Assembly: GCA_017443945.1 (NCBI GenBank)
Contig: JAFSXS010000057.1
Span: forward strand, 1-36,718
Length of the DNA: 36,718 bases
Source: Synergistaceae bacterium
GTDB lineage: Bacteria; Synergistota; Synergistia; Synergistales; Aminobacteriaceae
Direction of reading: 5' to 3'
Shown here: positions 4,511 to 36,638 of the stretch, in pieces
Position numbering within the stretch: the first letter of the stretch is position 1
Layout of the letters: each line of letters begins with the position of its first letter
Program-made: the position numbers and the translations under genes
The notes under the pieces: model-generated
Told to the model about the DNA's origin: nothing
Databases searched by the model: none
What the model saw: only the letters and a program-made list of their open reading frames with translations

Positions 4511-4608
4511 TGGCGGAAGTGTGTGGGAATCGAACCCACCAGAGACAGCTCAAACCGCCTCTCACCGGGTTTGAAGCCCGGGCCCATCACCAGACAAATC
4601 TCACTTCC
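4511..4608 (-). tRNA. selC: tRNA-Sec (UCA anticodon)
   Basis: 98 nt including an encoded CCA. Read on the minus strand it begins GGAAGTGA and ends ACTTCCGCCA. The anticodon arm is CCGGG-CTTCAAA-CCCGG with anticodon UCA. The D arm is a six-pair stem (TTTGTC/GATGGG with wobbles) and a four-base TGGT loop. A long variable arm opens with GAGAGGC and closes with TCTC. The T arm is GTGGG-TTCGATT-CCCAC. The long D stem, long extra arm, extended acceptor and UCA anticodon together identify tRNA-Sec, which SelB delivers at UGA with a SECIS element. Seven acceptor pairs are perfect; the eighth position appears as A opposite A. selA, selB and selD are not in this window. Confidence 0.97.
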
Positions 4609-7624: not shown

Positions 7625-8272
7625 TTATTTCTTGGACTTAGGCGTAAATTTCGCTTCTGTGCCGTGAATCATTCTTGCTATATTCGTTCTATGCCTGAAC
7701 ACACACAAAGCAGCAAGTACAGCAGACAAAATAATAAACTCTTTCGGCGCTCCTAACATAGCAAAACCTAACGGCATCGCAGCAAGTGAAAGCATTGACG
7801 CAAGTGATACATATCGAGTCAGCCACCTCACAGCATACCAGATAGCCCCGCATAATAACACTACAGCAAATGACTTGTACGGCCAAATAAAAAATAATGT
7901 CCCGTAAGTTGTAGCTACTCCCTTGCCGCCTTTAAATTTCAGCCAGACCGGATAATTATGGCCTATTACGACAGCAAATGCAGCGATCGACGCAATTAAA
8001 TTTTGCGACTCAGCCGGCGCAATATGTGCAGCTAGTAATAACGCAAATGCACCTTTTAACATGTCTACTATCGCCGTAAACCATGACCATACAGGCCCCA
8101 TCGCGCGCCCTACGTTTGTTGCTCCGATTGCTCCGGATCCTATTGAACGAATGTCGAGTCCGTCGCGCTTTCCGTTTTCGTCCTTGTGAAATAATTTCGT
8201 TACTACATAGCCCGTCGGAAATGAGCCTATTAAATATGAGACTATCGCCCATAAAATTATACTTCTCATCAT
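7625..8272 (-). CDS. plsY: glycerol-3-phosphate acyltransferase PlsY
   Basis: 215 aa inner-membrane acyltransferase that moves an acyl group from acyl-phosphate to glycerol-3-phosphate, the first step of phospholipid synthesis. Visible family motifs are SYLIGSFPTGYVV at the N-terminus, SIGSGAIGATNVGRAMG (motif 1, near residue 45) and GHNYPVWLKFKGGKGVATTYG split over motif 2. About five hydrophobic segments are present. Two adjacent ATG codons exist at 8272 and 8269; AGGAGG lies at 8292-8287, slightly far from both. It is the last gene of a five-gene leftward operon. Confidence 0.95.
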   Translation of the reverse strand: MMRSIILWAIVSYLIGSFPTGYVVTKLFHKDENGKRDGLDIRSIGSGAIGATNVGRAMGPVWSWFTAIVDMLKGAFALLLAAHIAPAESQNLIASIAAFAVVIGHNYPVWLKFKGGKGVATTYGTLFFIWPYKSFAVVLLCGAIWYAVRWLTRYVSLASMLSLAAMPLGFAMLGAPKEFIILSAVLAALCVFRHRTNIARMIHGTEAKFTPKSKK

Positions 8273-8279
8273 GATAAAT

Positions 8280-9356
8280 TTATTTTCCTCCTGTAATTCT
8301 GTCTGAGCCTGATTTAATGTTGAGCTTCACTAAGTCTTTATCCTTGAGGTTATCCCACTTGAAATTTAACACCAGCAGGAACAATGCCGAGAACGGATCC
8401 ATTTTCCAGTTTGTATTTTCCCTGAATGTGTCGTGAATCGTCTGCAACTGTCTCAAGCCTTTATTATCGCTTTCCATGTCGGCGAGAAATTTTTTAACGT
8501 CAGAAATTGTATCAAGTCCCGACGCGCGCAAAATATTGCACAAATAATTAAAGCTCTCACGCAGATAATTCGAGTCCGGCGTAAATTCCGGGAATCCTGC
8601 TTCAAGTGCTGCTGCGTTCCATTTCGCGAGAATTGAGTCATCTTCCTTGAACAAATTATATAATTCTTCGTCTGTAAAAAGTTTTTCGGCATTGATTGAC
8701 TCAGGCTTTGAACGTCCGGGATTTTCTGAAGGCGGAATTAATACGGCCTCGTCCTTTATCTCGTTGCGCAAATTTAAGAAGCCTTTGTCGGCAGTCTCAA
8801 GCAGTCCCGCTAATAAAACTAGTTCGCGCGTTAATTTTTTCTCGGAAATTGCCCCTACAGTGCGATTCACTCGCGGGAAAATCGTAGCCCATGCCTCTTG
8901 TAACATTGTAGGAAGTTCGAGTCTGAAGCTCAAATTTTTATATTTCGCCCATTCACGCAAATTAGCTCTTGATTCTGACAGCGATAAAATGTACACAACT
9001 GCCGGATAACCAAATCTGAACGGATCTTCAAGCCCGCTGGATGGTACAGAACGAGTCGAATCAATATCAAATTCAGATTTTACGACCGACTCAATTTTCA
9101 GCACGTCCTCAGGGAATCGCAGCAAGACTCTAACTGTAACGAGGTCAATAGCGTTTAATTCGTTTTCCTCAAGTGCAGAAAGTGCGCGCAACAATTCCGC
9201 CGGAGGTTTTGCCCAGCCTTCTATCGCGTAAAATTCGACTCCCTCAAGCTCGACTAAATCCTGAATTAAATTCCTGATTCTTGTCGCAAATTCCTCGTAA
9301 AGCGTGAGGCTCTCGACATATCTTATTCCGATTTCATTAGTTCTGCGTTTATCCAT
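8280..9356 (-). CDS. RelA/SpoT-like nucleotidyltransferase-fold protein, catalytically degenerate
   Basis: About 358 aa. Residues roughly 15-170 follow the RelA/SpoT synthetase layout: an N-terminal helix (LYEEFATRIRNLIQDLVE), a DLVTVRVLLRFPED strand where active enzymes have D-I-x-G-I-R, RFGYPAVVYILSL where they have GY-R-S-x-H, and LELPTMLQEAWATIF where they have E-x-Q-x-R-T...W. The histidine, the motif glutamate and the arginine are replaced, so pyrophosphate transfer is doubtful. The C-terminal half (about 180-358) is charged, helical-looking and unrecognised. The start may be ATG 9356 or TTG 9362; both overlap csaB. Stringent-response-derived regulator or scaffold is only a guess. Confidence 0.6.
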   Translation of the reverse strand: MDKRRTNEIGIRYVESLTLYEEFATRIRNLIQDLVELEGVEFYAIEGWAKPPAELLRALSALEENELNAIDLVTVRVLLRFPEDVLKIESVVKSEFDIDSTRSVPSSGLEDPFRFGYPAVVYILSLSESRANLREWAKYKNLSFRLELPTMLQEAWATIFPRVNRTVGAISEKKLTRELVLLAGLLETADKGFLNLRNEIKDEAVLIPPSENPGRSKPESINAEKLFTDEELYNLFKEDDSILAKWNAAALEAGFPEFTPDSNYLRESFNYLCNILRASGLDTISDVKKFLADMESDNKGLRQLQTIHDTFRENTNWKMDPFSALFLLVLNFKWDNLKDKDLVKLNIKSGSDRITGGK

Positions 9357-10288
9357 GTGCAAATTTTATCATAATATAATAAATTAATTTCGCGCGGTTT
9401 TACTGGCTCTACCCACGAGTCAATTATGCAGGGAACGCCGGACTCTTTTGCAAACTCGCTGACTTTCACGTCATAAGGCATTAACGCTAAAGGAGTCGCA
9501 AAGATTCTCGACAACACACCGAAATGTAAGCGCATTCCAATAGCTGACTCTGAATCACTCCAAATTTCGCACGCCTCATGAAAATTTTTGACTCTTATAA
9601 TATCTGTAAGCGGCAAATTTTTTAGTGCGCTCTCGTCTTCAGGAGCAAGGGCAACACCGATTTTCGCGGATTTATAATTATTTATGTGAGGCAAAATTAT
9701 TTTCACGAACGAGTCAAGATTCCTGCATGGACGCAAATTTATGAGCAATTTATTATTTTCGCGCGTAAAATTTCCCGGTTTGAGACTCAATGCAATGTCA
9801 GAGCCTCTAATTATATTCACGCAATTAAATTTTTCTGCGAGTTTCTGCGAGTTATTGTCCCTGACGTGAACCAGCCTGCACAGCCTTAAAGCATTTCCCG
9901 CAAAAAATTGACCCGTTCGACTCTCAAGCGGCCCGATTGACTGACCAAGCGCAAAAATTTTCGTTCCGGCCATTTTCGCGAGCCTCATAATAAGCCAATA
10001 CCATACGCAAGATTTTATACTTGTTGAGTCCTGAAAGAGTCCACCTCCGCCGAGTATTAGACTTTCGGAATTTCTCAGCACCCGCCAGACTTCGCGATAT
10101 TGCCAGCGGTTAATCGAGTCAACACCGAAATTTTTTGTTGTCTCATCGGGATTATTTGAGAGAACTATAATTTTTTCGCGCGTGACTCCAGCCTCAAGCA
10201 AAATATTTATACTCGCCTGCAGTAATAATTCATCACCGAGATTATTAAATCCGTAATAGCCTAATAGAGCAGCTTTATATTTTCTCAT
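9323..10288 (-). CDS. csaB: polysaccharide pyruvyl transferase CsaB
   Basis: 321 aa. N-terminal GYYGFNNLGDELLLQ and SLILGGGGLFQDSTS match the polysaccharide pyruvyl transferase family, as do FALGQSIGPL and, near the C-terminus, GMRLHFGVLSRIFATP. CsaB adds pyruvyl ketals to cell-wall-linked polysaccharide, which in many bacteria anchors SLH-domain S-layer proteins. It overlaps the DUF5693 gene by four bases (ATGA) and the RelA/SpoT-like gene by about 34, so it is tightly coupled in the operon. No SLH protein is visible in this window. The family call is firm; the acceptor polymer is unknown. Confidence 0.92.
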   Translation of the reverse strand: MRKYKAALLGYYGFNNLGDELLLQASINILLEAGVTREKIIVLSNNPDETTKNFGVDSINRWQYREVWRVLRNSESLILGGGGLFQDSTSIKSCVWYWLIMRLAKMAGTKIFALGQSIGPLESRTGQFFAGNALRLCRLVHVRDNNSQKLAEKFNCVNIIRGSDIALSLKPGNFTRENNKLLINLRPCRNLDSFVKIILPHINNYKSAKIGVALAPEDESALKNLPLTDIIRVKNFHEACEIWSDSESAIGMRLHFGVLSRIFATPLALMPYDVKVSEFAKESGVPCIIDSWVEPVKPREINLLYYDKICTWINAELMKSE

Positions 10289-24596: not shown

Positions 24597-25197
24597 CGAA
24601 ATCGAACGCGAAAGTATGCGAATTATAGAGATTCTCATATCAGGCAAGTATTCGGGTTCAAGTGAAAATTTACCAGTAATTAAACGCGTCATCCATGCAA
24701 CGGCAGATTTTGACTTTCTCGAAACTCTATATTTTTCCGAAAATGTAATCTCAAAGGCTCATGACGCAATTTTATCCGGCACTCCCATAATTACAGATAC
24801 AAATATGTTAAAGGCCGGAATTAGCAAGACTTTCACGCAAAAATTTGGGATAAATATAATCTGTCATGTAAACGAGCCTGAGACTCAAGAAAGCGCGCAA
24901 AAATTGAATCTCTCACGCTCAATAATCAATATAGAACGCGCAGTAAAAGATTTTCCCCGTGCAATTTACGCGATAGGCAATGCTCCGACGGCCTTAATAA
25001 AATTGTGTGAACTCATAAACGAAGGACTCGCATATCCCGCACTTATAATCGGAGTCCCGGTCGGCTTTGTGAACGTCATCGAAGCTAAAGAAATGCTCGC
25101 AGATTTAGTGAACGTTCCCCGAATTATCGCAAACGGACGCAAGGGAGGAAGCTCCGTCGCTTGTGCAATAGTCAACGCCCTGTTATATTCGGCATAA
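24580..25197 (+). CDS. cbiC: cobalt-precorrin-8 methylmutase CbiC
   Basis: 205 aa. Precorrin-8X methylmutase family: KRVIHATADFDFLETLYFS includes the active-site His, SGTPIITDTNMLKAGI, FPRAIYAIGNAPTALIKLCE and GVPVGFVNVIEAKEML, then ANGRKGGSSVA. It moves a methyl from C11 to C12, forming hydrogenobyrinate-type (cobyrinate) product. GGAGG is 14 bases upstream; a nearer ATG (24568) gives only three codons. Confidence 0.95.
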   Translation: MILNPDEIERESMRIIEILISGKYSGSSENLPVIKRVIHATADFDFLETLYFSENVISKAHDAILSGTPIITDTNMLKAGISKTFTQKFGINIICHVNEPETQESAQKLNLSRSIINIERAVKDFPRAIYAIGNAPTALIKLCELINEGLAYPALIIGVPVGFVNVIEAKEMLADLVNVPRIIANGRKGGSSVACAIVNALLYSA

Positions 25198-26210
25198 CAA
25201 CGGGAACATGTGCAGCAGGTGCAGCAAAGGCCGCAGCAATCTTTGAGTCAACGCAAAAAGTTTCTGAAAGCGTAATAATTCATAATCTCGACGGACTCGA
25301 ATTTAAGCTGAACACTTTCAGGCACGACGCACATTTTTTCGGCGTACAAAAATTTTCAGGCGATGACAAGTGCGACATTACTGACGGAATAAAAATTTTA
25401 GCCCGCGTTGATATTCTTGACGACTTCAACAGATTTATTTTTACGGCAGGAGAAGGAGTCGGAGTCGTAACTCTCCCCGGCTTGAAAGTTCCCCCCGGCG
25501 AACCCGCAATTAATCCAGTTCCGCGCAAAATGATAGAATTTGCAGTACGTGAAATTATTCCGCGCAGATCCGTTAATGTTACAATTGCAATCCCCGACGG
25601 TGAAAAAATTGCGCAGAAAACTTTTAATCCAAGACTCGGAATTTACGGCGGACTCTCGATTTTAGGCACAACCGGACTCGTTAAGCCCATGAACGAACGC
25701 GCATTATTGGAGTCTCTCACTCTTGAACTTAATATGATTCGTTCACTTGGATTTGACGAGATTTACATAACTTTTGCGAATACAGGCGAGAAGGCTTTAC
25801 GCAAAATTTTTAGTGTTACAGGCAGAAATATAATTCAATCAGGAAATTATATCGGTCATGTTCTCGACGAGTCAGCTAGATTAAATTTTTCGCGCGCAAT
25901 AATCTGCGGTCATCCCGGAAAATTATTAAAAGTTGCAGCAGGTTCATTCAACACTCATAATAAAATTTCTGACGGGAGGCTCGAAGCTCTTTGCACTCAA
26001 TTAGCTTTAACGGGGGCAAATCACGAAATTATTTCACGAGTCTATCACAGCAACACGACCAATGAAGCAATAAATATAATCAGTGAGTCAGGTTATAATA
26101 ACGTCTGGCAGAATTTAGCAGCAGTAACCGCAAAAAAATGCGCTGAACGAGTGAATAATAAACTAGAAATTTTTGCATATTTTATCGACAATGACGGGAG
26201 ATTATTATAA
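25161..26210 (+). CDS. cbiD: cobalt-precorrin-5B C1-methyltransferase CbiD
   Basis: 349 aa. The family N-terminus is GITTGTCAAGAAKAA, followed by GVGVVTLPGLKVPPGEPAIN, GIYGGLSILGTTGLVKPM and CGHPGKLLKVAAG. The likely start is TTG at 25161, inside the end of cbiC (37-base overlap), with GGGAGGA about 12 bases upstream. It methylates C1 after the CbiG step. Confidence 0.95.
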   Translation: MCNSQRPVIFGITTGTCAAGAAKAAAIFESTQKVSESVIIHNLDGLEFKLNTFRHDAHFFGVQKFSGDDKCDITDGIKILARVDILDDFNRFIFTAGEGVGVVTLPGLKVPPGEPAINPVPRKMIEFAVREIIPRRSVNVTIAIPDGEKIAQKTFNPRLGIYGGLSILGTTGLVKPMNERALLESLTLELNMIRSLGFDEIYITFANTGEKALRKIFSVTGRNIIQSGNYIGHVLDESARLNFSRAIICGHPGKLLKVAAGSFNTHNKISDGRLEALCTQLALTGANHEIISRVYHSNTTNEAINIISESGYNNVWQNLAAVTAKKCAERVNNKLEIFAYFIDNDGRLL

Positions 26211-27377
26211 ATGCTTACTATTGCCGGAGCAGGTACGGGAGAAATTATTAACTCAGTCAAGAAGGCCATAAACGAGTCTGATATTATATTTGCTCATGAA
26301 AGATTTAAATATTTAGTCCCGGCAGATAAAAAGTTTATCCCGCTCAAAAATTTTAGTGAAATATTTAATATAATCGAGTCAGAGTCAGGAAATAAATTAA
26401 TTCTCGTCTCAGGAGATCCCGGAATTTACAGCCTTTTACCGCTCGTGAAGAAAAAATTTAGCGATATTCGAGTCATTCCCGGTATAAGCTCACTTCAAGT
26501 AATATGCGCTCATGCGTGCGAATCATGGCAGGACGCGAAAATTTTATCAGGTCATGGCCGTAAACTTAAATCAGCAACTTTCTTGAACATAATCGAACGC
26601 TCAAGACTCGTTATTTTATTTTGCGACGAAAATATTTCTCCTGAATGGGCATGTAAGAATTTAGCAGATTTCAGAGAGCTTGATATTTTTATCGGTGAGA
26701 GACTCGGAAGCAGCGAAGAAAAAATTTATTCAGGCACTCCGAAAGATTTCATGACTCGAAAATTTTTGCAGCCTTCTATAATTCTTATACGCAACAAAAA
26801 TATTTATGAGCCGTTAAAGCTGTGTGATAAAAACTTTTTGCGCGAGTCAGGGATTCACATAACGAACGAAAATATAAGATCTATAATTCTTGACAAATTA
26901 GCGCTGAGTCAAGACTCGATTTTATGGGACATCGGCGCAGGTTCAGGAAGTATAAGCGTTACAGCAGCTCACAAATTTATTTACAGTGAAGTTCACGCAA
27001 TAGAGTGTAAATCTCAGGCAGCAAAATTAATTTCCCGCAATGCACAAAAATTTCATGTTCATAATATTTGCGTTCATGAAGGCCGAGCGCTTGAAGTGAT
27101 AAAAAATTTACCTGCACCGACCCACGTTTTTATCGGAGGCAGCAAGGGCGAATTAACCGGCATTCTTAAATATTTATCGGGGCTGAAAATTTCTATAAGA
27201 CTCGTGATTGAGTGTGTAACCCTTGAGACTTTGTGCTGTGCATTTGACTTCATGAAGGAATATAAAAATTTCGAGATCACCCAAGCAGCAATTAACACAT
27301 CAAAGAATATTTCAAATTCTATAACTCTTATGAAAGCTCACTCACCAGTAAATATTTTGTGTGCTGATGTGAATTAA
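26211..27377 (+). CDS. cbiET: cobalt-precorrin-6B/7 methyltransferase-decarboxylase CbiET
   Basis: 388 aa fusion. CbiE part, residues 1 to about 200: LTIAGAGTGEI, HERFKYLVP, LVSGDPGIYSLLP and PGISSLQVICAHACESWQDA. CbiT part, from about 215: ILWDIGAGSGSISVTAAH (SAM loop), VHAIECKSQAAKLISRNAQ and THVFIGGSKGEL. It methylates C5 and C15 and decarboxylates the C12 acetate. It begins directly after the cbiD stop. Together with cbiF and cbiG, only part of the pathway is here. Confidence 0.94.
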   Translation: MLTIAGAGTGEIINSVKKAINESDIIFAHERFKYLVPADKKFIPLKNFSEIFNIIESESGNKLILVSGDPGIYSLLPLVKKKFSDIRVIPGISSLQVICAHACESWQDAKILSGHGRKLKSATFLNIIERSRLVILFCDENISPEWACKNLADFRELDIFIGERLGSSEEKIYSGTPKDFMTRKFLQPSIILIRNKNIYEPLKLCDKNFLRESGIHITNENIRSIILDKLALSQDSILWDIGAGSGSISVTAAHKFIYSEVHAIECKSQAAKLISRNAQKFHVHNICVHEGRALEVIKNLPAPTHVFIGGSKGELTGILKYLSGLKISIRLVIECVTLETLCCAFDFMKEYKNFEITQAAINTSKNISNSITLMKAHSPVNILCADVN

Positions 27378-27942: not shown

Positions 27943-27970
27943 TTTACATTTTGCAAAATTAGTGTATAAT
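27943..27970 (+). promoter_or_regulatory. promoter of the binding-protein gene
   Basis: TTTACA (27943-27948), 16-base spacer, TATAAT (27965-27970), about 52 bases before the ATG. Confidence 0.6.
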
Positions 27971-28021
27971 ATTCCGCGTTGAATTAAGAAATAAATATTT
28001 TATTACGGAGGTTCTAACATA

Positions 28022-28825
28022 ATGAAAAAGTTTTTAGCAATTATTATGATGCTCGCGTTAAGTGCTGGTGTGTGCTTTGCTGAAGGACTCAATATTTCCA
28101 AGCCCGACCAGTTTGTAAATTACAAAATAGGAACTCAGAGAGGCACAATCGCAGAGGGTATCGCAAAAAAAATGCTCGGCGACAAAGCATCAAAGCAGCT
28201 TATCACTTATGAGAAAGCAACAGACGTTATTCAGGCGTTGAAGGTCGGAAAAATCGACTGCGCAATCATGGACGAGGCTCCCGCGCTGCAATTCAAGAAA
28301 AATGACCCTTCGAATCTTACAATTTTGCCGGACGCTTTGACAGTTGAGCAATATGCAATAGGATTCAAGCAGGGCAATAAAGAATTAGTCGAGCAGGTCA
28401 ACAAAGCACTTGCACAGATTAAAGCCAGCGGACAACTTCAAGCAATCATGCTCAAGTACAAAGAAGACCCGATGTCAACCAAGCCAGAAGATATTGATTT
28501 ACACGTCGGAGCTAAGGGCGGAAAATTAATCGTCGGCACTGAGTCAGGCTTCCCCCCCTATGATATTAAAGTCGGCGACGGTTACACCGGAATCGATATT
28601 GAAATGTGTGCATTAATCGCCGGGATTCTTGACAAAGAGCTTGTAATTATCGCTTACCCGTTCGACTCATTGTTCGCAGCAGTCAACAGCGGAAAAGTTG
28701 ACATGATCTGCGCAGGAATTACAGTAAATGAAGAGAGAAAAATGTTTACAGATTTCTCTGACCCCTACGAGGACGCAAAACAGGTCGGAGTCGTTCTCAC
28801 AAAGGATTATGCGCCCGCAAAATAG
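28022..28825 (+). CDS. amino-acid ABC-type substrate-binding protein, apparently circularly permuted
   Basis: 267 aa. Signal peptide KKFLAIIMMLALSAGVCFA, then an SBP_bac_3 (family 3 solute-binding) fold in swapped order. Residues about 35-158 match the usual C-terminal half: YKIGTQRGTIAEGIAKK, GKIDCAIMDEAPALQF, EQYAIGFKQGNKELVEQVNK. Residues about 165-267 match the usual N-terminal half: GKLIVGTESGFPPYDIK, GYTGIDIEMCALIAG, SGKVDMICAGITVNEERKM, TDFSDPYEDAKQVGVVL. The protein stops where a normal member would continue into lobe 2. No ABC permease or ATPase gene is nearby. GGAGG precedes the ATG, and a terminator follows. Ligand probably a polar amino acid; unproven. Confidence 0.85.
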   Translation: MKKFLAIIMMLALSAGVCFAEGLNISKPDQFVNYKIGTQRGTIAEGIAKKMLGDKASKQLITYEKATDVIQALKVGKIDCAIMDEAPALQFKKNDPSNLTILPDALTVEQYAIGFKQGNKELVEQVNKALAQIKASGQLQAIMLKYKEDPMSTKPEDIDLHVGAKGGKLIVGTESGFPPYDIKVGDGYTGIDIEMCALIAGILDKELVIIAYPFDSLFAAVNSGKVDMICAGITVNEERKMFTDFSDPYEDAKQVGVVLTKDYAPAK

Positions 28826-28860: not shown

Positions 28861-28890
28861 TGTCCCGGTTTTAACGAGCCGGGATTTTTT
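28861..28890 (+). terminator. rho-independent terminator after the binding-protein gene
   Basis: TCCCGG (28862-28867) pairs with CCGGGA (28878-28883), followed by TTTTTTG. The next gene's ribosome site begins 17 bases later. Confidence 0.85.
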
Positions 28891-28924
28891 GTTATTATTT
28901 ACTTGCAGGAGGTGTCATAAAAAA

Positions 28925-30397
28925 TTGGTCGAACTCGGAATCTTAATTGTTGTAATTCTCGTAACGGGAGCAGGTTTAATCGCAGGTTATAAAGTCAGAG
29001 ACAACGCAGATTTTCTCACGGGGGGCGGTAAATCTTCGACTCTTTTAGCTACGGGCGCGGTAGTCGGGACTCTCATAGGTTCGCAATCAACTTTAGGGAC
29101 GGCTCAATTAGCATTTAATTTCGGGATTTCTGCTTGCTGGTTTACTGTCGGAACGGCTTTAGGTTGTCTTGCTATTGCGTTGCTTTATTGTGATAAATTA
29201 CGTTATTCGGGCTGCACTACACAATTTCAAATTATTTCGCGCGAATATGGAAAATTAACCGAGAAGGCCGGCGCGATTTTGTGTACTACAGGAACATTTA
29301 TAAGCATTCTCGCACAAGTTACGGCGTGCATAGGCTTTATGATGACTCTTTACCCGTCATTGAATTTATTTCAGGCTTCTTGCGTGAGTTCTTTATTAAT
29401 TTGCTTATATATAATTTTCGGAGGGACATGGGGACTCGGTTTCGGAGGACTCATAAAGGTTGCATTAATTTATATCACGTGTGCGGCCTGTTTTGTGATT
29501 GCTTTAATGAATGCGGGCGGAGTTACAGGAATTTTTACGGGAGCAGAAAAATTTTTGCTTGATTCTAATATAGGAAGAGTACATAAAATTTTTAATCATT
29601 CAGATTTTGCAGCAAATTATTTGAATCTCACTGCTAGGGGATTTCACAAAGATTTAGGCTCGTGCGTGTCGTTGATTCTGGGGTTGTTGTCGACTCAGAC
29701 GTACATGCAATTTATTCTTAGCGCAAGAGATTCGAGAAGTGCGAAATATAGTTTTTTATGGGGCTTGGCCTTAGTTCCTCCGGTTGGTGTTGCAGGAATA
29801 TTTATCGGGCTTTACATGAGAGCAAATTATATAACTCTTGACGAATTAAAGACTCTCGTTTCTATGGGTTTGCAAATTCCTGATGTCCCTGTTCTTGTGA
29901 GTACGATACAAGTTTTCCCGGCCTTTATCGTTAGACATATTTCGCCGTTTTTCGGGGGCTTAATGATAGGGACTCTTTTTGTTACGGTTATTGGCGGTAG
30001 TTCGGGCTTATTGCTGGGAATTTCTGCGATTCTTGTAGAAGATGTCTTGACAGCGTTTAAATTTGTGAAGAGTCATAAATTGTTTTTCTCGCGTGCAATA
30101 ATAATTTTCACGTTGATTATAGCGGCATTTATCGCAAATAATTTTACGGCCAGTGCAATAAATGATTTAGGTTTTCTCTCGATGACGTTGCGTGCGAGCG
30201 TTGTATTTATGCCGTTGACTTGTGCATTATGGCTGAAGAAAAGAATTTCGCGCAGATTTATTCTAGCTTCGATTATATTATCGCCGTTAATTGCAATTAT
30301 GGGAGCGTTATTTAATTTCCCGTTAGAGCCTTTATATATTGGGATGAGTGTTTCTGTCTTGTGTTGTGTGATAGGCTTTTATAGTCAACGTACTTGA
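28925..30397 (+). CDS. sodium:solute symporter (SSS family)
   Basis: 490 aa with about twelve to thirteen hydrophobic segments. The start is TTG at 28925, with AGGAGGTG (28907-28914) ten bases upstream; a longer reading from 28889 would start inside the upstream terminator and is rejected. Seen: NADFLTGGGKSSTLLATGAVVG (split over the first helices), GTIGSQST-like VGTLIGSQSTLGTAQLAF, and SLILGLLSTQTYMQFI. These fit the SSS (LeuT-fold) Na+ symporters. Substrate unknown; organic acid or amino acid is likely. It follows the orphan binding-protein gene but is separated from it by a terminator. Confidence 0.85.
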   Translation: MVELGILIVVILVTGAGLIAGYKVRDNADFLTGGGKSSTLLATGAVVGTLIGSQSTLGTAQLAFNFGISACWFTVGTALGCLAIALLYCDKLRYSGCTTQFQIISREYGKLTEKAGAILCTTGTFISILAQVTACIGFMMTLYPSLNLFQASCVSSLLICLYIIFGGTWGLGFGGLIKVALIYITCAACFVIALMNAGGVTGIFTGAEKFLLDSNIGRVHKIFNHSDFAANYLNLTARGFHKDLGSCVSLILGLLSTQTYMQFILSARDSRSAKYSFLWGLALVPPVGVAGIFIGLYMRANYITLDELKTLVSMGLQIPDVPVLVSTIQVFPAFIVRHISPFFGGLMIGTLFVTVIGGSSGLLLGISAILVEDVLTAFKFVKSHKLFFSRAIIIFTLIIAAFIANNFTASAINDLGFLSMTLRASVVFMPLTCALWLKKRISRRFILASIILSPLIAIMGALFNFPLEPLYIGMSVSVLCCVIGFYSQRT

Positions 30398-30612: not shown

Positions 30613-32262
30613 ATGCAAGGCATAATGGACACAATTATGTATTATAACGGGATAATAAACAGCTTTGTCTGGGGTGCTCCTGTTTTAATACTGCTCGTTG
30701 GAACGGGCGTTTATTTGACGCTTTTGCTTGGTCTTCCTCAGTTCCGTTATTTTTTCTCGGCATTATCAGAAGTCTTCAGCTTCAGGAAAAAATCCGGCGA
30801 GGATAAATCAATATCATCATTTGCGGCGATGGCTACTGCGATGGCTGCTACAGTCGGAACAGGTAACGTCGCAGGAGTTGCTACAGCTTTACACTTAGGC
30901 GGCCCCGGTGCAATGGTTTGGATGTTAATTTCTGCAATTTTTGGTATGTGCACGAAATTTTCAGAAGTTACTCTTGCAGTTCATTACAGACAGAAGGACG
31001 CTCACGGAGACTGGCGCGGAGGCACAATGTATATACTTGATAAGGGCGTTCGTGAGGTTATGGGACCCGGACTCGGTGCGTTTGTCGGTAAATTATTAGC
31101 GATTCTATTTGCAATTTTCGCGTTCTTAGCCTCATTTGGAATCGGTGCAGCAACTCAGGCAAACTCAGCGGCAGAAGCTATTTCAATGGGCTGGGGAGTC
31201 GATCACCTTTACACCGGAATTGCTATGGCCGTTCTTGTTGCACTTGTTATCATCGGCGGATTGCAGAGTCTTTCAACTGTTACAACTTTGATAGTTCCCT
31301 TCATGGCAATTTTCTATATCGCAGGTTCAGTATTTGTTCTTGTAACGAATGCTGAAGCAATACCCGGCGCAATTTCTAACGCACTTCACTTAGCATTCAG
31401 CAACCCTACAGAAACTCTGCCCGGAGCATTAGCAGGCTGGTGCGTCAAAGAAGCAGTGCAGAGAGGTATCGCAAGAGGCGTTTTCTCCAATGAAGCTGGT
31501 ATGGGTTCTGCTCCTATGGTACACGCTACAGCAAGCGTTGAACATCCTGTGCAGCAGGGCTTTTACGGAATATTTGAAGTCTTCATGGACACGATCGTTA
31601 TTTGTATGATGACAGCACTTGTTATCATGTCGACAGGGACTCTTACGGGATCTCCTGAACTTACCGGCGCGCAGTTGACGTTGAAAGCCTTTGAGAGCGC
31701 ACTCGGAACGCCCGGAAAATATATTTTATCGGTCGGGTTATTATTATTTGCGTTCACGACGATTTTAGGCTGGTACTGGTACGCAGAGACGGCAGTTACA
31801 TATTTGTTCGGCGTATGGTGCAAACCTATCATGAAAATTTTATGGATCGCAATGGTCTTAATCGGATCGGCGGGCGCACAGTTTATCGGCTCAGAAGGCA
31901 ATCAATTCTTGAATAACATCTGGGATATTTCCGACACATTAAACGGCTTAATGGCATTACCGAACTTAATCGGATTATTAATTCTTTCCGTAACGTTAAA
32001 GCGCATAGTTGACGATTACGAAGAGAAATTTGGTGTGCCAGATGATAAATATTTGACTCCTTCGCACAAAGTCTTAATCGCAAAGGCTGAATATATTGTA
32101 ATAGGCGTTATCGGAGTAGTTGCAAGCATGGTCGCATTCTTTGGACACGCAAATATTTTCGGAACGATAGCTATATTGCTCGGCCTTCTTTCAGCGTATA
32201 AGCGTCAAACGTTGTTAGGATTTATTTCTGTTGTGCTCGGCATTGTAGCTGTTGCATTGTAG
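30613..32262 (+). CDS. alanine/glycine:cation symporter (AGCS family)
   Basis: 549 aa. Family signatures are clear: ATAMAATVGTGNVAGVATAL after helix 1, FGMCTKFSEVTLAVHYR, RGGTMYILDKG and IARGVFSNEAGMGSAP. These import alanine or glycine with Na+ (or H+). Usual members have about 440-490 residues; here the C-terminus continues after the normal core with DDYEEKFGVPDD and two to three more hydrophobic segments (AEYIVIGVIGVVASMVAFFG and NIFGTIAILLGLL). AAAGGAG lies 12 bases upstream. It has its own promoter and terminator. In an amino-acid fermenter this is a main nutrient importer. Confidence 0.93.
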   Translation: MQGIMDTIMYYNGIINSFVWGAPVLILLVGTGVYLTLLLGLPQFRYFFSALSEVFSFRKKSGEDKSISSFAAMATAMAATVGTGNVAGVATALHLGGPGAMVWMLISAIFGMCTKFSEVTLAVHYRQKDAHGDWRGGTMYILDKGVREVMGPGLGAFVGKLLAILFAIFAFLASFGIGAATQANSAAEAISMGWGVDHLYTGIAMAVLVALVIIGGLQSLSTVTTLIVPFMAIFYIAGSVFVLVTNAEAIPGAISNALHLAFSNPTETLPGALAGWCVKEAVQRGIARGVFSNEAGMGSAPMVHATASVEHPVQQGFYGIFEVFMDTIVICMMTALVIMSTGTLTGSPELTGAQLTLKAFESALGTPGKYILSVGLLLFAFTTILGWYWYAETAVTYLFGVWCKPIMKILWIAMVLIGSAGAQFIGSEGNQFLNNIWDISDTLNGLMALPNLIGLLILSVTLKRIVDDYEEKFGVPDDKYLTPSHKVLIAKAEYIVIGVIGVVASMVAFFGHANIFGTIAILLGLLSAYKRQTLLGFISVVLGIVAVAL

Positions 32263-33425: not shown

Positions 33426-36400
33426 TTATTTTTCTCCGGGCTTCCTGAAAAATGCCGCAATGACTGCCGCTAAAGTCATGACTCCGAGAACACCAGAGTT
33501 ACAGCCGCCGCCTGAACCGTTTGGGCCTTCAACGTTGTTGTTCTGATTCCCTGCAATGAGTTCGCTTGTCTTGAACGTTATTATTTTCTCGTCAGTCCAA
33601 GTTTTTCCGTTATCAGTAGAAAACTGTACAGGAATCGAATAATTTCCGGCCGGAGTTATTGTTGCTATTGACATTACAGCAAGGGCAGCTTCTTTTGCCG
33701 GTACTGTGTCTGCGCTGTCAACATTGAATGTGAACAGGATTAAGTCCGCAGAAGTCAAATTTTCATATGCAGCGGAATTTTCTTCAAGTTTTATGTCTGC
33801 GCTGTTGACTCTCCAGCAGACCGCAATATCTTTCGAAAACGTGAATGTCTTTGCGATTGAGTAATTGAATGTTCCGTCCTCTGCAACCTGATTATCAGGA
33901 TCTATCGGGCGTACCGTGTAATAATTTATAACAAAGTGGCTGATAGCCTTATCCGATTTGCTGTTAGTGCTGTAAAATGCCACAAGAAATTTCTGCTCTT
34001 CAGTCGCGCCTTCTTCAAGTTTAATCGTTATCGGACCTGTATACTTTACGGGTGATTTCAAGATATCCTGTGAGGCAACGTAGTAATAAATTTCAGCATC
34101 AGGGTCATCACAGAAAAGGTGAATTTCCTGCGAGCCATAGAAAACTCCCTCCGGCGGATAAGCATAAGGCTCTTCAACCCGTTCAAATCCATCAACAAAA
34201 ATTTCAAGCGTAATATCTGTGCTTATATTATTTGGATTGCTTACTCTGTCCGGCAGATTCACTTTCCCGTTGAAAAGATAAAGACGCGGTGCACGTTCTT
34301 CGGGTTTTTCTCCGGCTGCTTCGTTGTAAGAAACCCATGCTTCTTTGTTTTCGTCGAATATATAATCAGTGTTAAGGTAAGAACTTTTGTAGCTCGATGT
34401 ATTCCATGTTACCGGCAGTTTTTCAACGGCTCCGCTTTCATACAGGACATCAACGGACGTTCTTTGACTCAGCAACGTTTTTACGTCCTCTACATAATCT
34501 GAAGCTAAATCGTCAGCCTCAATGATATCAAGGAGTACTTGAGCTCCTTCAGCACTAATTTTTACGTTCGCGAGATTCAGATAATCAGGGTCAGAAATTT
34601 CAGCGATTGAAGCAGCAGTAATCTGACTTGTCTCGTTTTCATACAGTGAATCATCAGCACGAAGCCATGCCATTGCGATATTAGTAGAATGATTTTGCCC
34701 TATTCCCTGAATATAATTCATCAATGTCGTTGTATATGCCAGTCCGCCGGTATCGTACATGTTCGTGGAATAATCTTTATTCAGAAAGGCCATCGCAAAA
34801 TTTACCAGCACTAACAAGTCGTGATTCATGAGCTTGTTTCTCTCAGCAGCAGTCAAATGTTTAAGTTCCTGAAAAGCTCCGCTCTCCCGAATCATCCTGA
34901 TTAAAGTGGCACTAATAAAATTCTCATTTTGGCTTAGAGCCCATATTAGTATGCTACATATTGACTCGAATATATCAACTTCATTATTAAGTCTGGTGAG
35001 ACTGAATCTAGCTTGTATTTTCTCGCAGAATCTCTCGAAATCCTCATTAGTGCCGCTATGAATGGCATTCATAACATCACGGAGTGAGTCCTGCAGTGTG
35101 GCATCAGTCATTTTAACGCCGCTAGCCCCTATAACTATGCCGTAACCGCCGTTCGTTCCCTTTGCGATATATTTAGTGCGCGTAAGTTCTGTCCAGCTGC
35201 ATAAATTATTGACAAACTCATCAAGAAATTTGTCCAGACGCACGTTTTGGCCTCTGCTGAAAAGTTGTATGTTATCAAGCAGCGGTTGTCCCAGAATGAT
35301 ATTCAAATTATGATCCATTATATCCTTGCTGACGAAAGAATTAGCTGTGTAGGCAGCACCTTTGAGAATGCCGGCTTTTATCGCGTTTTCGAGTGTGAAT
35401 CCGTGAGTATCAACAGCTGCAAATCTCTGCAATAAAGAGCTATACCCATTTGGATCAATCGCCTTGAGATGTGTTTCCATTTTCGCACGTGCCGAGTTAT
35501 ATAACGAATTGAACTCGTAAAATGAAGCATTGTCGCAGCGTTCATCATAAGTTTGAATTTTGCCGGCCTGATAACCTGGAACATAATGGTCAACGCCGTA
35601 ACGTATAAAATTCATGGCCTTAGGCGCAACTCTCGGCACGACATCTCCAGGATCAACAATGTTATGAATGCAGTCGTATTCTTCTACGGAATATTTCAGC
35701 TTACCCTGCCAGCCTCCTCTGGGTGTTGCAAAGGTATAAGCTACAACTTTGCTGCTGGTGTCATGGCAGAGTTCGACAAGACGTTTTGCAGTTAAGTTGC
35801 TTACTGCTGCTGCACGGGAATAACCCGCAATCCAGAATACAAATTTTTTGTCCTTGTTGAGTGTAACCGTATTATCTGATGACGTAATTGCGCCCTTATC
35901 ATGACTGTTCACGAATGCTACAAGCTCCTTGTAAACTTTTGTTGCTGATTCGGAAAATCCCTTTGCCTCGTCCTTAGCGTCATTGCCGCCGTCATTGTCG
36001 TTTCCGCTGCCTAAAGTTACGTTGCTTACCCATTCTTTTTCGTAATTTGCGCCTCGTACTGCAATCGGGATTAATATACGGCCGTCTTTCATTGGTCTCC
36101 AGCCGAATGTTACGCCTATGCTGTCAGGTCTAGGTTTGACTCTGTTGTCTCTGTTGAGGTGAATATTGTTCGCGTCAACTCCGATATCTTTCATGTACTG
36201 GATGATATTTCTGCTTCTTGTCGAATATTCCCCGCCGTCGGTATACATGCCCGATATTGCCATACACAGCGAGGCCGTTGCTACATGAGGATTATATTTG
36301 TAGGGATCTTCAGCAAAGAATCCCTCCGAAAAGAAAAATCTCATAGGGAGCTCGGACGGTGATTTGAAGACTCCTTTCACTAGATCATATTTAGTGCCCG

Positions 36401-36518
36401 ATTCAGTCGTGTAACCGTTTGCAACCGTTTCAGTAACAGAAGCATAAGCCCTCCCGTACATAAACATGAATACAGCCGTGAAAATACAGATAAATTTTGC
36501 GGTTTTGCTGGACTTCAT
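33426..36518 (-). CDS. secreted lipase-like (alpha/beta hydrolase) Synerg-CTERM protein
   Basis: 1030 aa from ATG 36518, which has AAGGAG eight bases upstream and begins a signal peptide (KTAKFICIFTAVFMFMYG, cut after AYA). A longer reading from 36572 is disfavoured. An alpha/beta-hydrolase (class 3 lipase-like) core: nucleophile S234 in WIAGYSRAAAVSN, and HNIVDPGDVVPRVAP as the acid/late-strand region. A long helical middle follows. Near the C-terminus, PPEGVFYGSQEIHLFCDDP, DAEIYYYVAS and KYTGPITI resemble the chitobiase/beta-hexosaminidase-type Ig module, then GSGGGCNSGVLG, a hydrophobic helix and RKPGEK give the Synerg-CTERM tail. Probably a surface-anchored esterase or lipase. Confidence 0.85.
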   Translation of the reverse strand: MKSSKTAKFICIFTAVFMFMYGRAYASVTETVANGYTTESGTKYDLVKGVFKSPSELPMRFFFSEGFFAEDPYKYNPHVATASLCMAISGMYTDGGEYSTRSRNIIQYMKDIGVDANNIHLNRDNRVKPRPDSIGVTFGWRPMKDGRILIPIAVRGANYEKEWVSNVTLGSGNDNDGGNDAKDEAKGFSESATKVYKELVAFVNSHDKGAITSSDNTVTLNKDKKFVFWIAGYSRAAAVSNLTAKRLVELCHDTSSKVVAYTFATPRGGWQGKLKYSVEEYDCIHNIVDPGDVVPRVAPKAMNFIRYGVDHYVPGYQAGKIQTYDERCDNASFYEFNSLYNSARAKMETHLKAIDPNGYSSLLQRFAAVDTHGFTLENAIKAGILKGAAYTANSFVSKDIMDHNLNIILGQPLLDNIQLFSRGQNVRLDKFLDEFVNNLCSWTELTRTKYIAKGTNGGYGIVIGASGVKMTDATLQDSLRDVMNAIHSGTNEDFERFCEKIQARFSLTRLNNEVDIFESICSILIWALSQNENFISATLIRMIRESGAFQELKHLTAAERNKLMNHDLLVLVNFAMAFLNKDYSTNMYDTGGLAYTTTLMNYIQGIGQNHSTNIAMAWLRADDSLYENETSQITAASIAEISDPDYLNLANVKISAEGAQVLLDIIEADDLASDYVEDVKTLLSQRTSVDVLYESGAVEKLPVTWNTSSYKSSYLNTDYIFDENKEAWVSYNEAAGEKPEERAPRLYLFNGKVNLPDRVSNPNNISTDITLEIFVDGFERVEEPYAYPPEGVFYGSQEIHLFCDDPDAEIYYYVASQDILKSPVKYTGPITIKLEEGATEEQKFLVAFYSTNSKSDKAISHFVINYYTVRPIDPDNQVAEDGTFNYSIAKTFTFSKDIAVCWRVNSADIKLEENSAAYENLTSADLILFTFNVDSADTVPAKEAALAVMSIATITPAGNYSIPVQFSTDNGKTWTDEKIITFKTSELIAGNQNNNVEGPNGSGGGCNSGVLGVMTLAAVIAAFFRKPGEK

Positions 36519-36638
36519 GAAAAATTCTCCTTCCTTAAGGTATAAAATTTTACAGTCATGATACAATTTCAAACACTCTAAAACAATATAACATATTTAT
36601 ACCGGGCTGATTTATGCGCGAAAAATTATTTGTCTCCT

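Follow-up and report, generated by a model that had tools for sequence, protein, structure and literature searches.

Binding proteins of the SBP_bac_3 family (family 3, PF00497) usually run from lobe 1 through lobe 2 to a C-terminal segment; the sequence family itself does not require this order. In the following, A stands for the main segment of lobe 1 (the canonical N-terminal half), B for lobe 2, and C for the C-terminal segment returning to lobe 1, the canonical order being A-B-C. Canonical members, such as GlnH, HisJ, the T. maritima ArgBP, and AncQR (4zv1), possess both halves, the Arg and Asp motifs of the pocket, and a signal peptide. Permuted binding proteins are already known in the type I fold and in the OpuAC family. 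The former case is TpMglB-2 (Tp0684) of Treponema pallidum, a natural circular permutant of an ABC-importer binding protein, which has retained ligand binding and undergoes a conformational change in the process; its authors proposed tethering as a possible driver of the permutation (PMC4990184). OpuAC, in turn, falls within a circular-permutation family of glycine-betaine-binding proteins (PMC2395249). As for SBP_bac_3 itself, no report of a circular permutation was found in an open-access library, outside which most subscription papers lie, and novelty is not proven.

The window, that is, the whole stretch of DNA analyzed here (36,718 nucleotides), harbors on the forward strand, at positions 28022-28825 (stop included), a gene with an unbroken reading frame from ATG to stop, coding for a 267-residue protein which, judging from its sequence, is a genuine natural circular permutant of a family-3 binding protein with the order B-C-A. 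It starts with a signal peptide (residues 1-20, MKKFLAIIMMLALSAGVCFA; 28022-28081, +) with a basic start, a hydrophobic core, and an AxA-like end; this single N-terminal signal, visible in the sequence, had already been recognized in the first-pass annotation. The Pfam SBP_bac_3 profile recognizes the protein with 105 bits, against a cut-off of 26.4, in two stretches. Aligned to a profile derived from 22 proteins of canonical order, residues 24-147 (lobe 2 and the canonical C-terminal segment; 28091-28462, +) match columns 135-253 (E 1e-28), and residues 158-261 (lobe 1 main segment; 28493-28804, +) match columns 29-132 (E 7e-34). What comes second in canonical proteins is thus first here, and the linker in between (residues 148-157; 28463-28492, +) would connect the former C-terminal helix with the former N-terminal strand. 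Family-3 proteins from the PDB likewise align in two stretches each, with swapped order. The first-pass annotation had read the halves as reversed, with boundaries at 35-158 and 165-267, close to the profile limits; the possibility it had left open, that the first half forms an unrelated domain, does not hold, both segments being bona fide halves of SBP_bac_3.

Moreover, every cyclic rotation of the mature chain was scored against the canonical profile. In the native order, the best stretch reached 107.6 bits and corresponded to one half, while the chain starting at residue 151 gave 205.9 bits in one unbroken alignment over columns 29-253; for three canonical controls, the gain was at most 0.2 bits. 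Paralogues from the same genome (C18, C100, and C86) and eight distant permuted proteins behaved like the protein under study.

The order is shared well beyond this gene. A genome scan retrieved 35 loci with 74-93% identity from rumen and gut MAGs of Synergistaceae/Fretibacterium (hosts including goat, sheep, deer, and reindeer). The alignment of 34 of these orthologues (74-94% identity) with the protein (A1) revealed the same order in all of them, each with one signal peptide, and the search for Synergistota homologues that the first-pass annotation had proposed thus gave a positive answer. According to alignments A1 and A2, two residues are invariant: Asp84 (28271-28273, +; VDAVVxD motif), aligned with the pocket Asp of AncQR, and Arg239 (28736-28738, +; AGITVNEER motif), aligned with its carboxylate-binding Arg. 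As in other members of the family, they would act in the amino-acid pocket and in carboxylate binding, respectively.

The structure predicted by AF2 from 35 sequences is of moderate quality (best model pLDDT 77, pTM 0.62; mean pLDDT of the five models 77, 63.5, 57, 47, and 44), with low pLDDT in the linker and a helix at residues 2-15, within the signal peptide; a single-sequence prediction for the orthologue L074 (pLDDT 33) was left unused. The model contains a long strand at residues 99-116 and a final strand at 250-259, which, compared with the domain limits of GlnPQ SBD1 (PMC8025302), would represent the two hinge strands; both chain ends would then lie in the small lobe, whereas those of canonical proteins lie in the large one. 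Type II binding proteins head the list of fold matches of this moderate-quality model (Z 8-11). The best sequential match is B. subtilis OpuAC (2b4m; Z 11.2, 213 aligned residues, rmsd 5.0, residues 32-266), ahead of the T. maritima ArgBP (172-174 aligned), which belongs to the protein's own sequence family. OpuAC having itself been described as a circular permutant, its match to the model agrees with the sequence result; it is supportive only, given the high rmsd and the fact that sequential aligners can match pseudo-symmetric lobes. The two proteins would share the two-lobed type II topology only, OpuAC (2b4m/2b4l, PF04069) belonging to another sequence family with other ligands, and the PF04069 profile did not match our protein at E up to 1. 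TpMglB-2 resembles it in being a naturally permuted ABC-importer-type binding protein, and differs in its type I sugar-binding fold, its cut, and its family.

The gene appears to stand alone. It is preceded by a sigma-70-like promoter (TTTACA-16-TATAAT, 11/12; 27943-27970, +; a consensus match only) and by a GGAGG ribosome-binding site (28007-28011, +) 10 nt 5' of the ATG, and it is followed by a terminator-like hairpin with a T run (28862-28885, +; again a consensus match only), which suggests a transcript of one gene. No riboswitch was detected upstream of it at the Rfam gathering threshold. No permease or ATPase of this type adjoins it within the window, and a C18-type permease (see below) was not found in the flanks of the orthologues. 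The window also contains a cbiD and cbiE/T region (25161-27377), 644 bp upstream of the permuted gene; a link of the latter to corrinoid metabolism is possible. On the 3' side lie two sodium symporter genes (28889-30397, SSF family, and 30613-32262, Na:alanine AgcS family); the SSF gene was matched in only one orthologue flank, so that the pairing is not conserved. Elsewhere in the window, a selenocysteine tRNA (4515-4608, -; Rfam tRNA-Sec, 76 bits) makes it probable that the organism uses selenoproteins, and a 1048-residue protein (33426-36572, -), in which a class 3 lipase domain is accompanied by weak Ig-like/chitobiase-C repeats, is probably a large surface or secreted protein.

The picture changes when the rest of the genome is considered. 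Sixteen places match the protein, itself included; its permuted relatives number about 15. The closest paralogue (C18:7006-7821; 55% identity) is permuted and lies directly 5' of a polar-amino-acid permease (7811-8617), followed by an ATPase (8624-9373). Seven permuted genes in a row, within L085:8274-14250, adjoin one permease and ATPase on C86 (L085 6469-14250); two further permuted genes are found on C100, two groups of three on C52, and one on C88. The canonical order occurs on C32. A search for polar-amino-acid permeases revealed two clear ones (C18 and C86), plus a weak one (C43). Both clear permeases adjoin permuted binding-protein genes; therefore, this organism appears to rely on permuted binding proteins for its ABC uptake of amino acids of this type. 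The array proteins (C86, C52, and C88) are divergent, and their ligands may differ from those of the others, since the one checked by motif lacks the pocket Arg motif; the seven-gene array perhaps represents a diversified ligand set. The permuted relatives in other genomes rule out that the architecture is unique to this protein, and the first-pass description of it as rare finds no support, given this large paralogous family and the several origins across bacteria discussed below.

In the light of these data, we consider with good confidence that the gene encodes a genuine permuted SBP_bac_3 protein, most likely binding an amino acid and feeding an importer encoded elsewhere, from a family that arose by in-frame rearrangement. 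The protein would be exported to the periplasm and fold as an ordinary two-lobed Venus flytrap, except that its ends would have left the large lobe for the small one, where they would lie just past the first hinge strand, the short linker bridging the original ends. Since the Arg and Asp of the family pocket are kept in the sequence, a free amino acid would most likely be bound between the lobes. It would most likely be delivered to an ABC importer whose genes lie at another place in the genome; the C18 permease and ATPase, downstream of the 55% identical paralogue, are the best candidates. The family would have been born by in-frame rearrangement of canonical genes, probably via tandem duplication.

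The reading that survives best beside this one, although unlikely, is that of a permuted protein acting in the periplasm as a sensor or scavenger, without any ABC partner, e.g., by presenting its ligand to a receptor. It would fit the solitary gene with its own promoter-like and terminator-like signals, the orthologue flanks lacking a matching ABC permease, and the occurrence of cbiD and cbiE/T cobalamin-synthesis genes ahead of the gene in about 20 of the 34 orthologue loci, at a distance of sometimes only about 40-100 bp. However, the nearest paralogue is embedded in a complete ABC operon, and no receptor or kinase gene was found adjoining the binding-protein gene. Orphan binding proteins sharing an importer are common. 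The first-pass annotation had proposed a protein without ABC partners, either a sensor or the client of a distant transporter: the absence of partners is true of this locus and does not extend to its relatives, and the distant transporter is favored over the sensor, because the nearest paralogue and most distant permuted relatives either lie beside permease and ATPase genes or are fused to a permease.

Such fusions occur in other Synergistota, where one to eight permuted units precede a permease in the same protein: one unit in G125 (513 aa), two in G090 (799 aa), six in G085 (1787 aa), and eight in G070 and G065 (2260 and 2252 aa, respectively). The ATPase gene lies directly 3' of the fusion gene in the last four, and Pfam recognizes in the G070 protein a C-terminal BPD_transp_1 domain and eight SBP_bac_3 stretches. 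The large Synergistota fusions (1787-2260 aa; six to eight permuted domains and one permease, an ATPase gene lying 3' of them) are located at L119:4644-11426, at L120:5667-12425, and on L129 and L130. GlnPQ of Lactococcus lactis (6h30) likewise carries tandem binding domains fused to a permease (PMC8025302). The likeness concerns the presence of several family-3 domains in one chain with the permease; GlnPQ possesses two domains in canonical order, the Synergistota relatives one to eight permuted ones, the largest of them going well beyond the two of GlnPQ, and the protein at 28022-28825 is unfused.

The complete fusions also bear on how the chain folds, all of them starting with B and ending with A before the permease. 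It is conceivable that lobe 2 pairs by domain swap with lobe 1 of a different molecule (as a dimer) or, in the fused proteins, of a neighboring unit, instead of with lobe 1 of its own chain, so that the canonical connections are restored; the sequence is compatible with it, and a protein with several units could in principle adopt either pairing. Nevertheless, the joint from C to A within a unit hardly varies in length (about 19 aa, sd 0.0-0.9) and shows a recurring DESxK..DYxxLP, whereas that from A to B between units is variable (14-28 aa), of low complexity, and rich in P, S, A, and K. This pattern favors B-C-A as the unit that folds over canonical A-B-C units read with a shift, and, together with the single-unit permuted proteins present in many lineages, makes the domain swap improbable.

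Still less credible is a binding protein turned enzyme, for example a cyclohexadienyl dehydratase: the PDB matches do comprise ancestral forms of this dehydratase and precursors of them, but the best one is AncQR, an arginine/glutamine-binding ancestor, Arg239 and Asp84 are invariant, and the nearest paralogue belongs to a transport operon. Finally, an artefact of assembly or gene prediction, i.e., a chimera of two tandem canonical genes, which the first-pass annotation had considered and for which the tandem arrays of binding-protein genes in this genome might speak, can be dismissed, because 34 orthologues in independent assemblies share the order and the single signal peptide, the reading frame is uninterrupted, and a related permuted protein is encoded in a single-contig genome of 2.73 Mb (G039).

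The amino-acid-binding permutant that we favor has counterparts outside Synergistota. The permuted alignment was used to search 299 genomes from the phylum to which a Clostridia MAG belongs, as well as 149 from that of a Streptomyces, and the ORFs of the best matches were read; permuted proteins were found in at least 15 genomes of the former and in at least one of the latter. These Clostridia-type and actinobacterial proteins rule out a restriction to Synergistota. Most of them are lipoprotein-like or fused to a permease (L137, L157, and L158). Most of the unfused ones adjoin permease and ATPase genes (L135, L143, L155, and L160), as do the permuted proteins of L222-L224; that of L136 adjoins a permease at the end of its sequence stretch. 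The association with polar-amino-acid permeases and ATPases is common to canonical PF00497 proteins and to the relatives of the permuted protein. Search matches alone are no proof of order, since one candidate that looked permuted in the search table (G485/L140) turned out, on parsing, to be a canonical tandem A-BC-A-BC and was excluded. In the plasmid collection, no permuted match was confirmed; the sole match covering 80% of the query (H1) is annotated as a basic amino-acid binding protein and is canonical in the tree set.

The cut points differ as well. The commonest one falls at about profile position 131/135, just past the first hinge strand; that of L143 lies at 143/144, those of L142 (654-1550) and L155 (2532-3350) at 163/164, inside lobe 2, and that of L139 (1234-2091) near 203, which yields the order C-A-B. 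The number of distinct cut points is at least three (around profile positions 131, 163, and 203).

A tree was built from the A and BC segments (71 rows, 205 columns) by a quick method. On it, the permuted label needs eight changes, and the starred branches alone force three. The AU test rejected a single clade of all permuted proteins, and hence their single origin (p 8.8e-9), and did not reject one clade for the single-domain Synergistota proteins (p 0.47). Given the quick 205-column tree and some long branches, the exact count of origins is uncertain. The protein under study groups with those of C18, C100, and G039 (support 100, starred). A permuted (L135) and a canonical (L178) protein are sisters (98, starred), with 66% identity in A and 60% in BC. 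In the G439 family, a full-length permuted-type match was obtained in about 24 of 63 matching genomes, the rest giving separate or partial matches; domain parsing confirmed the order in five permuted and three canonical loci. In the actinobacterial G622 family, the permuted match was full-length in 15 of 27 genomes, whereas in 11 the halves were matched only separately.

Among these data, the natural permutation stands out most clearly where the locus around it has stayed the same, in an actinobacterial region conserved between genomes (L218 and L212). Both have in common the upstream genes, a first binding protein of canonical order, a permease (homologous between the two), and the downstream gene; they differ in the second binding protein, which has the order A-BC in L218 (3757-4638) and BC-A in L212 (3729-4859), its halves being 55% and 56% identical. 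Tree, cut points, and synteny together support the idea that the permutation arose several times independently in bacteria. As for the mechanism, the first-pass annotation had suggested a tandem duplication followed by loss of the outer halves, in agreement with the tandem-duplication model of circular permutation (PMC3320104). The tandem fusions of canonical units that are known (L140 and GlnPQ) make the duplication step plausible, but no half-truncated intermediate was found among the loci examined; fission and fusion would be another possible route.

Most natural circular permutations are ancient events, deduced by comparing distantly related structures. In the present case, the identity between canonical and permuted relatives amounts to about 55-75%; they share the same kind of operon, use closely related permeases (78% identity between those of the canonical L225 and the permuted L222), and in one case occupy the same locus. 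What makes the SBP_bac_3 permutation of interest is its recurrence, the switch at one locus, and the multi-domain fusions. Such matched pairs represent a testbed for the effect of moved chain ends on folding, hinge closure, binding, and importer docking, and bear on how permutation happens in DNA and on whether tethering drives it. From a practical viewpoint, annotation easily takes permuted members for ordinary or broken binding proteins, and the natural cut points are of use in biosensor design. For the family as a whole, circular permutation is probably a mode of evolution that recurs and is fairly recent, with independent events, several cut points, and, in one bacterial family, a switch that left the surrounding locus unchanged; it would be repeatedly tied to tethering, through lipoprotein anchors or permease fusion, and would have expanded in Synergistota to as many as eight permuted domains per permease.
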